Position numbers and translations under genes: made by a program. DNA of 29,490 nucleotides from a virus, in IMG/VR virus record IMGVR_UViG_3300010230_000002, positions 1 to 29,490 of that record; one strand, 5' to 3'. Below the pieces are notes generated by a model, which was given only the letters and a program-made list of their open reading frames with translations, did not search any database and had not been told where the DNA came from. Position 1 is the stretch's first letter. Every line of letters starts with the position of its first letter. Below, piece by piece: positions 1,902 to 29,490 of this stretch.

Positions 1902-2271
1902 ACTGCTTAGAGTCATCAAGCGGTTTGTCAAAGACCAAAACAGAGGCATCTCTGTCAAGCTCTTTGCCGAGCTGTGTGGTGTTGACAAGGAGCATTTGCT
2001 TGATGTGTTCTTTTATCGCATCCGACCTCTGACCGAATATATGCAGATACGAGTCAGTAAAGGCTACAACTCATGGCTAAAAGGCGAAGTAGCCGTGATG
2101 CAAAACAGAGACAAGACACGGTTCGTGGAATACAGACGCGAACCAAAGCCCCGACTAGCCCGTACAACGGGACTACACCTAGTCAATGGGGAAATAAAGA
2201 TTAAGGTAGGGGTGGCTAATCGCGGTGATTACTCAGGTCAGACCTTAGATGAAGCACTTGAAAGGGGATAA
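1873..2271 (+). CDS. Small phage protein with helix-turn-helix look
   Basis: The product is 132 residues from ATG 1873, which lies inside the end of the preceding gene. Residues about 27-62 (GISVKLFAELCGVDKEHLLDV and onwards) have the spacing of a helix-turn-helix, followed by a basic middle (RDKTRFVEYRREPKPRLAR) and a C-terminal NGEIKIKVGVANRGDYSG segment. A GTG at 1807 in the same frame would add 22 residues but would overlap the upstream gene by 95 bases. The position just after terminase is where small terminase subunits or late regulators can sit. DNA binding is plausible but I cannot assign a job. Confidence 0.6.
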   Translation: MLPVTIPKRELLRVIKRFVKDQNRGISVKLFAELCGVDKEHLLDVFFYRIRPLTEYMQIRVSKGYNSWLKGEVAVMQNRDKTRFVEYRREPKPRLARTTGLHLVNGEIKIKVGVANRGDYSGQTLDEALERG

Positions 2272-2273
2272 CT

Positions 2274-2771
2274 ATGGCTGTGCTAAAAGACTATAAATGC
2301 GACAAACACGGATACTTTGAGAGCTTTGAGGCTAAATGCCCGATGAAGAGCTGCTCTGAAGATGTCTATGTTGTCTTCTTGCAAGCTCCGGGACTTATCT
2401 CGGACACGACCAAGAAGAACGACAAAAACATCAAACAACTCGCTATGGAATTTGATATGACTGATGTCAAGTCCACACGCGAGGGTGAGAATCAAGCAGG
2501 GTTTTTTACCCGTAAGAACAAGACTTCTAAGCGCCAGCTTGAGAAAGAGGCTAAGATTGCCGCAGAGCGTCCAAGAGAGCCAAGACCGGGGGACGCTGCT
2601 ATCTGGGGTGGAGACAGCCGTTATAGTATGAGCAATCTACTCAGAGGCAATGCGGTTAGACCAGTCCGAGATGAAGCGGTATCTATTTTGCCTAAAGATG
2701 TAGGAAATTTGACTGGACCTAAGATGGCTAGTTATACTGCCGACCATGAAAACCTAAGTCTGAAGAAATAA
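2274..2771 (+). CDS. Zinc-ribbon-like phage protein of unknown function
   Basis: The product is 165 residues with a clear SD block (AGGGGATAACT) before the ATG. The N-terminus has C9, H12, C22 and C27 in YKCDKHGYF...AKCPMKSC, the layout of a small zinc-ribbon as in FmdB-type regulators. The middle is lysine-rich (TRKNKTSKRQLEKEAK, near 79-94) and the C-terminal third is low in structure. Its last base is the first base of the portal start (TAATG), so the two are probably translationally coupled. A packaging or head-assembly role is suggested only by its neighbours. Confidence 0.65.
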   Translation: MAVLKDYKCDKHGYFESFEAKCPMKSCSEDVYVVFLQAPGLISDTTKKNDKNIKQLAMEFDMTDVKSTREGENQAGFFTRKNKTSKRQLEKEAKIAAERPREPRPGDAAIWGGDSRYSMSNLLRGNAVRPVRDEAVSILPKDVGNLTGPKMASYTADHENLSLKK

Positions 2772-4396
2772 TGCGGATACCATCCAACGAACTTCTTAGA
2801 GAACAGTTCTACCGTGACTTGATTGAAAAGTGCATGGTGTCCTTGCAAGAGCGCAAAGGTGACTACGCCTCTCTGCGTTCTTTCTTTCTCTTTGGTTCTG
2901 GTCCTGATGAGTCTCCGACCATCTTTAACAAAATCTATCCCCACATTGACCAACTAACATCGTTCCTCTACTCAGCAGAAACGACACGGTTCTCCATCAA
3001 TGTCGGGGCTTCTGTCCCAGACCAAGAACAAATTAAAGTCCCTCGCCTGACGCTTGCGCTCAATGACGAGTGGCTTAACTCCAACGCAGACCAAGTATTT
3101 AGTTCAGCACTTACTTGGTCACTTGTCTTTAACTCGACCTTCATCAAACTGGTCTACAACAACGGCATACACCCGTACATGGTAGAACCCGCCAGTATTG
3201 GTGTACTCAGAGAAGACACACCCTATACAGACCGGCAAGAAGCCCTCGTTCAAACTTACTACATTACCAAGTCTGAGCTTTACAACCGGCTGTATTCCCA
3301 CCCCAAGCGCGAATCAATCGTCAAGCGCATTACGACTAGCGTACACAGTAAGACTGAAGACTTGCCAGAAGGCGTCGACCGCATCATCATGTCGCAGTCA
3401 AACCCCACCATCTACGGCAATGTGAACCTAGACCTCTCAGGCATGAACCGCTACAAGGCGCGTGTGGCTGAAGAAACAGTCAAGATGTATGAGCTGTGGG
3501 TATGGAATGACGAGACTGAAGACTATCAATGCGTCACGATGGCTGACCCTGACATCTTCATCTACGACAGACCCGGTGCATCTATGTTCCTCAAGGGTGA
3601 ACTACCCTTTGTGCAGATATGTCCTAACCCACAGTACGACTATTACTGGGGACAGTCTGAAGTACAACGCCTAGTATTCTTGCAACAGTTACGCAATAAC
3701 CGCATGACTGAGATTCTTGACTTGCTCTCTAAACAAGTTAACCCGCCAACAGCCCTCACAGGCTTCACAGGCATCTTGGATGAGAAGAACTTTGCCCTGA
3801 ATCGTGCTGGTGGACTACTAGCAAGCGATATGCCCAATGCAAAGGCTGAGAGATTAGCCCCTGATATGCCGTCATCTCTCTTTGAAGTGATACATGAAGT
3901 GGACGCAATGTTCTCGGAAGCCTCTGGCATCTCCTCTGTACTGCAAGGAAAAGGCGAATCTGGTGTTCGTTCTTCTGGTCACGCATCCCAATTAGCCCGT
4001 TTAGGGTCTAGTAGAGCCAAGAAACGCGCCCTGATTGTGGAAGATTCGCTAGAAAAGGTGGCTACGTTATACCTAAAACTGATGCAAGCGTATGACAAGA
4101 CCCACTTCAAAGACGATGAAGGGCATCAATTTATTGCCGAACAGTTCACCAAAGACTATGTGGTCAAGGTGGATGCCCACTCTAACTCGCCAATCTTTAC
4201 AGAAGACTTGCGCCAGTTGGCATTTAACTTGTTTAAAGCCAAAGCTATTGATACAGAATCCTTGCTTGACTTACTTGAGCCACCAATGAAACAATTGCTC
4301 AAAGACAAGTTGAAGAAGAAAGAGCAAGCAGCCGCTAGTCAACCTCAACAGCAAGAAGCGCCCCCTAAAGGCAAACCTGATTTGAAGGCAATGTAA
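2771..4396 (+). CDS. Portal protein (podovirus-like head-tail connector)
   Basis: The product is 541 residues, a usual size for podoviral portals, which form the dodecameric ring through which DNA is packaged and ejected. Supporting marks are the N-terminal helical start, the segment FIKLVYNNGIHPYMVEP near residue 123, the WGQSEVQRLVFLQQLRNNRMTEI helix near 292 that matches the portal stem/tunnel region, and SGHASQLARLGSSRAKKRALIVE near 404. The C-terminus is a Gln/Ala/Lys-rich tail (AAASQPQQQEAPPKGK), common in portals. The call rests on sequence style plus position between terminase and capsid genes. Confidence 0.8.
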   Translation: MRIPSNELLREQFYRDLIEKCMVSLQERKGDYASLRSFFLFGSGPDESPTIFNKIYPHIDQLTSFLYSAETTRFSINVGASVPDQEQIKVPRLTLALNDEWLNSNADQVFSSALTWSLVFNSTFIKLVYNNGIHPYMVEPASIGVLREDTPYTDRQEALVQTYYITKSELYNRLYSHPKRESIVKRITTSVHSKTEDLPEGVDRIIMSQSNPTIYGNVNLDLSGMNRYKARVAEETVKMYELWVWNDETEDYQCVTMADPDIFIYDRPGASMFLKGELPFVQICPNPQYDYYWGQSEVQRLVFLQQLRNNRMTEILDLLSKQVNPPTALTGFTGILDEKNFALNRAGGLLASDMPNAKAERLAPDMPSSLFEVIHEVDAMFSEASGISSVLQGKGESGVRSSGHASQLARLGSSRAKKRALIVEDSLEKVATLYLKLMQAYDKTHFKDDEGHQFIAEQFTKDYVVKVDAHSNSPIFTEDLRQLAFNLFKAKAIDTESLLDLLEPPMKQLLKDKLKKKEQAAASQPQQQEAPPKGKPDLKAM

Positions 4397-4625: not shown

Positions 4626-4629
4626 ACGG

Positions 4630-4666
4630 TTTCCCCGAAAGGGAAAAGGGTGTGGCTTCCTTCCCT
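4630..4666 (+). promoter_or_regulatory. Two mutually exclusive hairpins between micropeptide genes
   Basis: TTTCCC (4630-4635) can pair with GGGAAA (4641-4646) across a five-base loop. The same GGGAA run, extended as AGGGAA (4640-4645), can instead pair with TTCCCT (4661-4666). The second stem ends just before an ATG at 4668. The arrangement looks like a small attenuator or mRNA switch, but no U-tract follows either stem and no ligand or leader peptide logic is visible. Confidence 0.3.
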
Positions 4667-25892: not shown

Positions 25893-26063
25893 TCAACGGT
25901 AGATATATCGGGCATACTCGCGCCCACCCTCTTTAACCATAGTTGTAAGGATTGGATGTCCTTGCTTCCTAAGATATTCGATATGGGCTGCAAGCCTGAA
26001 TGAGCCATAGTTATTTAATGCGTCCATCGGGGTTAGTGAGCCAATATTTTGCAAGTGCTTCAA
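25893..26063 (-). CDS. Helix-turn-helix micro-gene in the RecT-SSB gap
   Basis: A TTG overlapping the recT stop (TTGA) opens a 56-residue frame ending 10 bases before the SSB-like start. It reads KHLQNIGSLTPMDALNNYG, then SFRLAAHIEYLRKQGHPI and GREYARYIYR. This is the LTPxEAL..YG..RLAARI..LRK.GH pattern of the HTH_39-type domain common in phage recombination regions. ATG inside (SLTPM) is too late for the domain. It is likely a small DNA-binding protein, either a regulator of this operon or a partner of recombination. Confidence 0.7.
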   Translation of the reverse strand: MKHLQNIGSLTPMDALNNYGSFRLAAHIEYLRKQGHPILTTMVKEGGREYARYIYR

Positions 26064-26911
26064 AATATTTTCTCGTTGGCTTCCATGTCGGCTACGAACT
26101 GGGACGCTGGTGACTTTGGGTGTTGGTTTACCCCTTGATTCGCAAGCTCTGCTCTAATTTTGATTTTGTCAAAACTGCTGAACTTCTCAGTTACAGTCAT
26201 ATTAGCTTCAGCTAACTTGGCTACTTTCTCTGTACGCTGCTCATCAGACAGCTTTGATGAAGCCATAACTTTGCCTACAAGTTCTCCATATCCTGCAATC
26301 CATCCTTCAGGCGTATGGAAAGAGGCATAGATTTGACCGTCAGGCAAGATAAGGGAGTAGTCACCACCGGTGTCTTCTATGACCTCTACGGGCTGTTTAA
26401 CGTCTTCTACAACGCCCATGTGCTTTGGCATAGGGCTATCAAAGTCCATGACCTCTTCTGTGGCGTAGTGTCCCAAGATACAAGCCGGATAGATAGAGCG
26501 TACAGCCCTAGAGATAACCCTAGCTCTGAGCATATCTTCAGGATACTTAGACCATCCTGAACCCTCGCGGTAGATACCGGCTTGCCTTGCCATCTCGATA
26601 GTCCATTCAACGGTAAGAGTACCGCCTTGTGGGTGCTTGAATGTCCCCTTGACTGCCTTGGGTGTGACTACATCCCATTGGACAGAGCCACCAGAGAGTT
26701 GGAAACGGGCGAGGATTGCTTGGGACTTCAGGGCTGGTTTGCCTTGGATGATGTCGTACTCTTGCACGACAGAGGCGGGGTGCTTGTTTTCTGCTTGGGC
26801 TACAAGCATTACAGCCATGACTTGCTCTTTAGTCTTAAAGCCGTAAAAGCCTGATTTAACGATACTGTCAGCCATGACTGTCATGTCTGATACAGGGATG
26901 ATGTTACTCAT
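26060..26911 (-). CDS. recT: RecT-family single-strand annealing protein
   Basis: The product is 283 residues with SD TTGGAG. Typical RecT parts are KTKEQVMAVMLVAQAENKHPASVVQEYDIIQGKPAL (27-62), the beta core (WDVVTPKAVKGTFKHP and TVEWTIEMARQAG) and WSKYPEDMLRARVISRAVRSIYPACI followed by YATEEVMDF. The C-terminus is variable and charged, as usual. It coats resected single strands and anneals homologies, partnered by the exonuclease encoded upstream at 28256. The start lies downstream of the TTCCTAACTA leader motif. Confidence 0.85.
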   Translation of the reverse strand: MSNIIPVSDMTVMADSIVKSGFYGFKTKEQVMAVMLVAQAENKHPASVVQEYDIIQGKPALKSQAILARFQLSGGSVQWDVVTPKAVKGTFKHPQGGTLTVEWTIEMARQAGIYREGSGWSKYPEDMLRARVISRAVRSIYPACILGHYATEEVMDFDSPMPKHMGVVEDVKQPVEVIEDTGGDYSLILPDGQIYASFHTPEGWIAGYGELVGKVMASSKLSDEQRTEKVAKLAEANMTVTEKFSSFDKIKIRAELANQGVNQHPKSPASQFVADMEANEKIF

Positions 26912-27350: not shown

Positions 27351-28256
27351 TTAACCTTTCACTAAGAATCTACGGCTGCCAGCTACTTCCCGAACATAGG
27401 ATTTGTAGACATCTGGCATGGACTGCTCAAAGAGCTTGGCATCAAACTTCATGCTGCCTTTTGCACTTTTCCAAGTGGCAAGGACTCGCCCGTCTAGGGT
27501 TACCAACTCGCTGTTGACCCCCATAAATTTCTGTATTTCCACTTTGAGCTTCTCTTCCTCGTCTTCCCACTTCTTGAGCTGGTCTTTGGTGTAGTTCAAG
27601 GCTTGGCACATCTGCTCTAGGCTTTGTGGTGCGGTGATAGAAGTAGGTGCGGAGACAGAGTAGATTAGCTTTGCTTGCTCGGTAGTCTCAGGTTCAGGGT
27701 ACTGCTTAGACGCAACGTGCGCCCAGAACTTCGCCATATCTTTGATGAGCTGCTCTTTCTGTGCTTCTTCAATGGTGAACTTAAACACTTCAAAGTTTTG
27801 TCCCCCAAATAGAACAGCCAGCACAATGTCTGAGATATTGTGGACTGCCGCTTCATGGATGAGTTGCGCCATATCAGCCGCAGGGATGATGTTGGCTTCG
27901 GTGTCGAACTTGTTGCGTACAGCAGCGTTGTAGTTTTTGACTTCCACAAGCGTTTGTCCGTCAGTCGAGATGAAGTCGAAATGGGAACGCATCCAAGTCT
28001 CTTTCGGGTGAGTGAGCGCATAGTCTGCTTCCTTCAATTCCATGCCCAGTTTGGCACTTGCAAGTTGTCCAATGATGGGCTGCATCACATGACCCATTTG
28101 GACTACTTCAACCTCTGACAAGTCTGGTCTATCCTTAACCCCTAGCTTCTCTAGGACAGCATCATTACCGCGTCCATTGGCTGCCATACGGCTATCGCCT
28201 GACCACCAAGCAGAGTTGCGTATCTCTGGTGCAAAGTCGTTTCTATCATTTGCCAT
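27351..28256 (-). CDS. YqaJ-type phage exonuclease/recombinase nuclease
   Basis: The product is 301 residues with strong SD AAGGAG. A PD-(D/E)XK nuclease core is visible: D94 in SHFDFIS, then E106 and K108 in TLVEVKNYNAAV. The upstream helix QMGHVMQPIIGQL has the expected His but a Gln (Q59) where many relatives have Glu. A central alpha/beta region (ADMAQLIHEAAVHN, DIVLAVLFGG) and a C-terminal coiled coil (LKKWEDEEEKLKVEIQKFMG) follow. It would resect double-strand ends for the RecT protein encoded downstream. The TTCCTAACTA leader motif precedes it. Confidence 0.8.
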   Translation of the reverse strand: MANDRNDFAPEIRNSAWWSGDSRMAANGRGNDAVLEKLGVKDRPDLSEVEVVQMGHVMQPIIGQLASAKLGMELKEADYALTHPKETWMRSHFDFISTDGQTLVEVKNYNAAVRNKFDTEANIIPAADMAQLIHEAAVHNISDIVLAVLFGGQNFEVFKFTIEEAQKEQLIKDMAKFWAHVASKQYPEPETTEQAKLIYSVSAPTSITAPQSLEQMCQALNYTKDQLKKWEDEEEKLKVEIQKFMGVNSELVTLDGRVLATWKSAKGSMKFDAKLFEQSMPDVYKSYVREVAGSRRFLVKG

Positions 28257-28560
28257 GATTGCTCTCCTTAGTTAGGAAAAATACTGCTTCACCCAATGCG
28301 GTAACGACAAGGGTTGCTCTTGCGTACAGCTCTGTGTACTTCTCAAGGTCATCAGTCAACTGCTCAATCTTGTCATTGAGTTCAGCCTTAGAGTGGATGC
28401 ACTTCTTGAGGGCTAGTTCTAGGTTGTTGGATTCGTCTTGCACTTCTCTGAGAAACTCTTTGTCTTTCTCAGCTTGTGTGTGTAAGTCTTTGATGGTGTC
28501 TTTTAGTTCTCTGTTCTCTTGAATCTTTCTAACAAGAGAGTCTTGCAGCTTAGTTGCCAT
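28246..28560 (-). CDS. Coiled-coil protein (104 aa)
   Basis: The product is 104 residues, almost entirely heptad-like (NRELKDTIKDLHTQAEKDKE; NDKIEQLTDDLEKYTELYAR) with a short hydrophobic C-terminal helix (ATLVVTALGEAVFFLTKE). It overlaps the previous stop by 11 bases and the exonuclease start by 11. No family is recognised; an oligomeric accessory or inhibitor is possible. Confidence 0.6.
   Translation of the reverse strand: MATKLQDSLVRKIQENRELKDTIKDLHTQAEKDKEFLREVQDESNNLELALKKCIHSKAELNDKIEQLTDDLEKYTELYARATLVVTALGEAVFFLTKESNHGK
28269..28278 (-). promoter_or_regulatory. Leader motif TTCCTAACTA before the exonuclease gene
   Basis: On the minus strand this exact 10-mer lies 12 bases before the ATG at 28256, directly against AAGGAG. 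It is one of three exact copies. Confidence 0.5.
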
Positions 28561-28774
28561 TTGGTGTCTCCTCGGCTTGATTTAGTTCAAACAACTTTGC
28601 ATCCATGCCACACTCGCCATCAGCAAGGCGCATGGATTCGCAATATTTGTAAGTGGATTCGCCAGTAACTAGATTGATGTTCTCGGATGCTTTGCACCGG
28701 TCATAGTTGGCGATTAAAGAGCTGCTCTTGCTGGCGAGATGCCATTTGCAGTCAACACAGATTAAAGGCTTCAT
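28550..28774 (-). CDS. Cys-rich small phage protein (74 aa), probably zinc-binding
   Basis: The product is 74 residues with SD AAAGGGG. Cysteines occur in ICVDCKWH (C6, C9), YDRCKAS (C27), KYCESMR (C45) and GECGMD (C55). The order CxxC...C...NLVTGE...YC..MR...CG is a pattern I know from short phage proteins of unknown function, likely folding around zinc. It is the first gene leftward of the promoter-like repeat at 28808 and carries the leader motif TTCCTAACTA 15 bases before its ATG. Confidence 0.65.
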   Translation of the reverse strand: MKPLICVDCKWHLASKSSSLIANYDRCKASENINLVTGESTYKYCESMRLADGECGMDAKLFELNQAEETPNGN

Positions 28775-28789
28775 GTTTCCCCTTTCGGA

Positions 28790-28799
28790 TAGTTAGGAA
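28790..28799 (-). promoter_or_regulatory. Leader motif TTCCTAACTA before the Cys-rich gene
   Basis: This exact minus-strand copy lies 15 bases before the ATG at 28774 and about 10 bases downstream of the -10-like TACATT of the repeat. Confidence 0.5.
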
Positions 28800-28807
28800 T
28801 GAGTAAG

Positions 28808-28851
28808 TAATGTATCACAGTTATGATGATTAGTCATTGTATTTATTAATC
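28808..28851. repeat. 44-bp inverted repeat, copy A
   Basis: This block is the exact reverse complement of 29447-29490. It begins TAATGTATCACAG and ends TTATTAATC on the plus strand, and it lies in the spacer between a 21-residue micro-gene and the Cys-rich gene. It contains the near-palindrome ATGATTAGTCAT and the leftward promoter candidate. The match stops at 28852 on the inner side; on the outer side it could be longer but the window ends. Confidence 0.95.
28809..28837 (-). promoter_or_regulatory. Leftward promoter candidate inside repeat copy A
   Basis: On the minus strand ATGACT (28837-28832), a 17-base spacer and TACATT (28814-28809) preceded by TGA form an extended -10 promoter (TGATACATT). 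It would start transcription near 28800, just before the leader motif and the Cys-rich gene. The -35 is weak (4 of 6 to TTGACA). Confidence 0.4.
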
Positions 28852-28871
28852 GGTTTGTCCTTTCTGATAGT

Positions 28872-28937
28872 TTATTTGTCAACAAGTACCAAGAAAATAA
28901 TAAACGCAATAAACGCAACAAAGAGTATCTCAGGCAT
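28872..28937 (-). CDS. 21-residue single-TM micropeptide
   Basis: An ATG overlapping the stop of the Cys-rich 79-residue gene (ATGCCTGA) opens a 22-codon frame. The peptide is a single hydrophobic helix (PEILFVAFIAFIIFLVLV) ending Asp-Lys. It looks like a membrane micropeptide; the DNA has the tandem ATAAACGCA twice because of the repeated V/I-A-F-I. No SD is visible, so coupling to the upstream gene is needed. It could be chance in an AT-rich spacer, but codon-level coupling and a perfect TM composition favour coding. Confidence 0.45.
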   Translation of the reverse strand: MPEILFVAFIAFIIFLVLVDK

Positions 28938-29169
28938 TGTTTGACGGGCAATCTAGGCAATGGGTTGGTCTGTCATTGCAAATGCCAAGGTGCTTGCACT
29001 CGTAGGGATGTTGGGGAATACGCGCAAAGGCTTCGTCCTCTAGCTCTTGGTCTTCTAACTCGCGTATGGTGCGCTTGCGCCATACAGACTTACGGGCGCG
29101 GCATCCATCCTCGCAATCTTGCAAGCATAGGCGCGTATGGGGGTAATGACAATCAGTTTGGTCACGCAT
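28930..29169 (-). CDS. Cys/His-rich small protein (79 aa)
   Basis: The product is 79 residues with eight Cys in two clusters: N-terminal (C7, C15, C19, C23 in DCHYPHTRLCLQDCEDGCRAR) and C-terminal (C58, C64, C71, C74 in YECKHLGICNDRPTHCLDC). They are joined by an acidic helix (TIRELEDQELEDEAF). This suggests two zinc sites. The ATG overlaps the stop of the 37-residue gene upstream by eight bases. I do not know the family; small zinc proteins of early phage regions often act on host regulators. Confidence 0.6.
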   Translation of the reverse strand: MRDQTDCHYPHTRLCLQDCEDGCRARKSVWRKRTIRELEDQELEDEAFARIPQHPYECKHLGICNDRPTHCLDCPSNNA

Positions 29170-29275
29170 GGCGTATGTCTCCAGTCATAATTAATGCAAG
29201 GGTTATCAGATACACGGGGGCGTTATGCCCCTCGCGTACACGGTCAAGCAGCTTATGGGCATCAGCTAGGGTCAT
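29162..29275 (-). CDS. Micro-gene (37 aa)
   Basis: The frame from ATG 29275 encodes 37 residues starting MTLADAHKLLDRVREGH, with NAPVYLITLALIM as a short hydrophobic stretch, and ends TGDIRHA. It overlaps the upstream gene by 14 bases (ATGACCCTAGCTGA) and the downstream one by eight (ATGCGTGA), a typical coupled chain. No SD of its own is visible. The function is unknown. Confidence 0.5.
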   Translation of the reverse strand: MTLADAHKLLDRVREGHNAPVYLITLALIMTGDIRHA

Positions 29276-29429
29276 TGGGTTTCACCGTTGGTGTCCATCC
29301 AAAACGCCGCCATGTCTGAGTTATATCGGTGCGCGAGGCGGGTACATAGTCAAACCCTTGCGCGAGTAAGCGCGTAGGGCGCGTAGGGGTGCGCGTTGGG
29401 GCTATCGGGGTGAGCTTTGGTTTAAGCAT
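29262..29429 (-). CDS. Short phage protein (55 aa) with FGWTP motif
   Basis: ATG 29429 has GAGGT as SD. The 55-residue product starts with a Pro/Thr/Arg-rich MLKPKLTPIAPTRTPTRPTR and continues GFDYVPASRTDITQTWRRFGWTP. The pattern F.YVPASRTD...TW.RFGW.P is one I associate with very short proteins of aquatic phage early regions, so this is very likely a real gene. The function is unknown. It is the first gene of the leftward cassette next to repeat copy B. Confidence 0.7.
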   Translation of the reverse strand: MLKPKLTPIAPTRTPTRPTRLLAQGFDYVPASRTDITQTWRRFGWTPTVKPNDPS

Positions 29430-29446
29430 TGGCAACCTCATAAAAA

Positions 29447-29490
29447 GATTAATAAATACAATGACTAATCATCATAACTGTGATACATTA
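29447..29490. repeat. 44-bp inverted repeat, copy B, at the window edge
   Basis: This is the exact reverse complement of 28808-28851, ending at the last base of the window. It lies 18 bases upstream of the ATG at 29429. In this orientation the promoter-like ATGACT (29461-29466), 17-base spacer and TACATT (29484-29489) point rightward, out of the window. The repeat may continue beyond the edge. Confidence 0.95.

Follow-up and report, generated by a model that had tools for sequence, protein, structure and literature searches.

A perfect 44-bp inverted repeat ending at a scaffold gap in a viral record is very probably a fold-back chimera of a conserved element

Near position 29,490 of IMG/VR virus record IMGVR_UViG_3300010230_000002, two arms at 28808-28851 (copy A) and 29447-29490 (copy B) are exact reverse complements of each other (44/44), with 595 nt between them. 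Does this repeat belong to the phage, and if not, how did it arise? The stretch analyzed here, referred to as the window, comprises bases 1-29490 of the record. A first-pass annotation of the window had described the repeat as perfect and as enclosing four leftward open reading frames of 55, 37, 79 and 21 codons, and both descriptions hold: the match is exact, and the reading frames are present in the record and conserved in relatives (Table 1), with the 55-codon frame reaching 59 codons if started at an upstream ATG. When the arms are lengthened inward, the inverted match extends to 49 nt at 96%. Shuffling the last 5 kb 100 times by dinucleotides gave a longest inverted match of 19 nt, so the 44-bp match cannot be attributed to chance.

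Table 1. Positions of the two copies, the neighboring genes and the proposed junction elements within the window
Feature	Position	Strand	Remarks
74-aa gene, downstream of copy A	28550..28774	-	Kept in relatives; no PHROG/Pfam match
Copy A, intergenic element	28808..28851	-	Same place in 25 relatives
TTAATC, inner end of copy A, proposed annealing site	28846..28851	+	Also in the native B site of relatives
21-aa small gene	28872..28937	-	Collinear in relatives
79-aa cysteine-rich small gene	28930..29169	-	27 IMG/VR loci encode a 79-aa product at 63-91% identity
37-aa small gene	29162..29275	-	Collinear in relatives, identity up to 100%
55-aa small gene	29262..29429	-	Collinear in relatives
TTAATCTTTTTATGA, true 3′ end of upstream small gene (..LIFL, stop)	29438..29452	-	L017 identical, other relatives close
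GATTAA, native 3′ end, proposed fold-back primer	29447..29452	+	Native in relatives as TTAATC (gene strand)
Chimeric 38-nt contig tip, reverse complement of 28808-28845	29453..29490		Without counterpart in 22 read-through relatives; adjoins Ns

The position of copy B within the full record bears directly on this question. The parent record is 31,991 bases long; position 29490 is followed by exactly ten Ns (29491-29500) and then by 2,491 more bases that carry leftward genes and are homologous to relatives. Because the record runs on past the ten Ns, the window edge is a scaffold gap rather than a genome terminus, with the 44 bases of copy B closing a contig. The small gene that lies upstream of the 55-aa gene is found beyond this gap, with the next contig starting inside it. 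A second 10-N gap in the record (31114-31123, corresponding to 5115-5124 in L004 numbering) falls inside a gene, and at this gap all seven aligned relatives have just three bases, GAT, indicating that ten Ns are a nominal length. Masked sequence would also appear as N, although masking of exactly ten bases at both of these places is unlikely. The record contains a further N gap at about 31726-31743 (L004 5727-5744).

To place both copies in context, we gathered about 35 related IMG/VR contigs by scanning with the repeat as a pattern and with the 79-aa product as a protein query. Both ends of the region are present on 19 of these contigs and the B end only on a few more, though some contigs are near-duplicates (e.g. 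L018-L020) and not all are independent. The search of relatives proposed in the first-pass annotation, for the repeat pair as well as the cassette, gives a consistent picture: the small genes keep the same order and orientation throughout, and the second repeat is missing. When the 44-mer was scanned with up to 10 mismatches allowed, no contig yielded more than one copy of the element, and every copy lay at site A, ahead of the 74-aa gene. A DNA search of a collection of named phages returned no match to 28500-29490. Judged by major capsid protein, the closest annotated phages are Bacteriophage sp. MW202753 and MW202825 from Manatee Spring (92% and 89% identity, respectively); they have no DNA match to this interval either and are uninformative on the repeat.

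At the B site itself, 22 IMG/VR relatives read unbroken from the upstream small gene (MQSRYIFDKVNQ...) toward the 55-aa gene, and copy B is found in none of them (0/22). The nearest relative, L017, is identical to the present record over the 30 bases before and the 34 bases after the stretch that differs. On the gene strand, L017 reads GATTTGGTTTGCGCCATAATCTTTGTCGTG TCAGTAGCCCTG TTAATCTTTTT ATGAGGTTGCCAATGCTTAAACC, and in the present record GATTTGGTTTGCGCCATAATCTTTGTCGTG is followed by ten Ns, by 38 nt of copy B and finally by TTAATCTTTTT ATGAGGTTGCCAATGCTTAAACC. Only TCAGTAGCCCTG has been replaced, which in L017 forms part of the end of the upstream gene (..FVVSVALLIFL, stop). The hexamer TTAATC is native both to the B site and to copy A, at whose inner end it lies (TATTTATTAATCGGTTT), and the 44-bp repeat thus resolves into 38 copied bases plus a 6-base shared junction (TTAATC/GATTAA). 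Among random inverted junctions within 2 kb, 0.18% share at least six bases (chance 0.0018).

We conclude from these observations that the assembled record does contain the repeat but the phage almost certainly does not, copy B being very probably a technical chimera. In the phage, the 3′ end of the small upstream gene (..IFVVSVALLIFL, stop) would directly precede the 55-aa gene, as it does in relatives. During amplification or library making, a plus strand ending 3′ at GATTAA (29447-29452), within the upstream gene, could have folded back on itself and annealed, across 595 bases, to the TTAATC that closes copy A on its inner side (28846-28851). Extension of the paired end by a polymerase for 38 nt would then yield the reverse complement of 28845-28808, and the chimeric read would become a contig tip that the assembler linked across the nominal 10-N gap to the next contig. 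We infer both the origin of copy B by fold-back priming and the preparation step at which it occurred. Copy B could form the end of a contig only if chimeric molecules made up a good share of the reads there. An error of assembly overlap alone was also considered and set aside: a match of six bases falls short of the k-mer overlap that an assembler needs, making a chimeric read the likelier source.

Published chimera profiles are consistent with such an origin. Among chimeras from multiple displacement amplification (MDA), 85% are inverted, 83% of the inverted ones join segments less than 10 kb apart, and most junctions have 2-21 complementary bases (Lasken and Stockwell 2007, PMC1855051). Copy B shares this profile, being an inverted join of segments less than 10 kb apart (about 0.6 kb here) with short junction complementarity, and in both cases the junctions are consistent with 3′-end priming on a nearby strand. 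Hairpin chimeric reads also form at the end-repair step of library preparation (MicroSEC, PMC8674242), where, as proposed for copy B, one single strand forms a hairpin through two short inverted matches and is filled in by a polymerase. The MicroSEC chimeras, however, were described for FFPE human DNA, with a hairpin filter operating within 200 bases (PMC8674242); the loop here is 595 bases.

Several rival readings were weighed against fold-back priming. One is an invertible segment, in which the 600-bp cassette is flipped between TTAATC and GATTAA in part of the population and the contig joined the two forms. A flip between these six-base repeats would give exactly the B junction, although a real 44-bp match would exist in neither form. 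Neither the B-type junction nor its reciprocal was found in IMG/VR using strict patterns, and every relative shows the same single orientation. Six bases are, moreover, far shorter than the crossover sites of known recombinases. We regard an inversion as very unlikely, and there is a similarly slim chance that a low-frequency flipped small-gene cassette really exists in the phage population and was caught in assembly. RecE-like and RecT-like genes lie nearby, and no recombinase was seen among the proteins tested, which cover part of the genes. The related proposal of a mobile cassette with terminal inverted repeats was rejected, as relatives carry the small genes without a second repeat. Neither the invertible nor the mobile cassette raised by the first-pass annotation is thus borne out, its enclosed genes having one orientation in all relatives and the repeat occurring as a single copy, always at site A.

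Alternatively, copy B could be a real inverted duplicate of a promoter/operator element, inserted ahead of the 55-aa gene in one strain. Operators do occur repeated in phages, copy A is a genuine conserved element, and exact identity over 38 nt does not by itself distinguish a technical copy from a real duplication of very recent date in one strain. Such a duplicate, however, would face rightward between genes that run leftward on either side and would interrupt the upstream gene in its conserved end, and its stopping at a scaffold gap would be a coincidence. No relative carries a second copy, and the duplicated regulatory module suggested earlier is a highly improbable reading. A real repeat would mean that a highly conserved phage leader element had been duplicated in inverted orientation, perhaps within an invertible module. 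The remaining reading, a genome-end hairpin or terminal inverted repeat, draws its sole point from copy B stopping at the window edge. The 2,491 further bases after the gap, their homology to relatives and the unbroken sequence of relatives here leave this reading with a negligible probability, and the continuing record rules out a genome-end hairpin; the edge that had been taken as a possible genome end is a gap inside a longer record. Among the options first listed for the repeat, only the assembly or fold-back hairpin is thus supported by comparison with relatives.

As a caution for similar data, where a perfect inverted repeat runs up to a stretch of Ns in a metagenomic scaffold, the first suspicion should fall on a contig tip made by fold-back, which can be tested on related contigs without reads.

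Copy A and the four small genes, by contrast with copy B, are real. Copy A, a strongly conserved intergenic element, matches at 43/44 positions in L005 and L007, even though the protein encoded downstream is only 38% identical. In an alignment with 25 relatives, GATTAATAAATACAATGRCTAATC is nearly unchanged, and the bases flanking it occur in two main forms, ATGA..TCAT and ATGG..CCAT. The interval 28790-28862 (minus strand) holds a short dyad whose two halves change together: it reads ATGA-CTAATCA-TCAT in most relatives and ATGG-CTAATCC-CCAT in others. The sequence upstream of copy A differs among the relatives in this alignment, so copy A also marks a mosaic boundary. Judging from its place and conservation, copy A probably serves the leftward early genes as a promoter/operator or leader. 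A sigma-70 scan did not call it a promoter; by eye, it contains ATGACT-17-TACATT with a TGA just before the second hexamer, which is only a weak extended -10 candidate. A leader peptide encoded by a short frame in copy A (ATG ACT AAT CAT ...) was considered but set aside: the frame differs in length and residues from one relative to another and has no ribosome site at a normal distance ahead of it.

The gene content of the small-gene cluster varies among relatives by gain or loss. L006, for example, has frames of 291 aa (2201-3076) and 193 aa (3419-4000) inside the cluster, at places flanked by the 58-aa and 37-aa genes and by the 79-aa and 28-aa genes. None of the small proteins tested matched Pfam or PHROG. 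Immediately downstream of the cluster, on the minus strand, are genes for a RecE-like exonuclease (27351-28256) and a RecT-like annealing protein (26060-26911). Finally, many leftward genes are preceded by a recurrent leader, roughly TTCCTAAC..(A)AAGGGGTAAACC-ATG, with examples at 28775-28800 and at 3912-3942, 4628-4662 and 5746-5775 of L004. This is probably a shared ribosome-binding leader.
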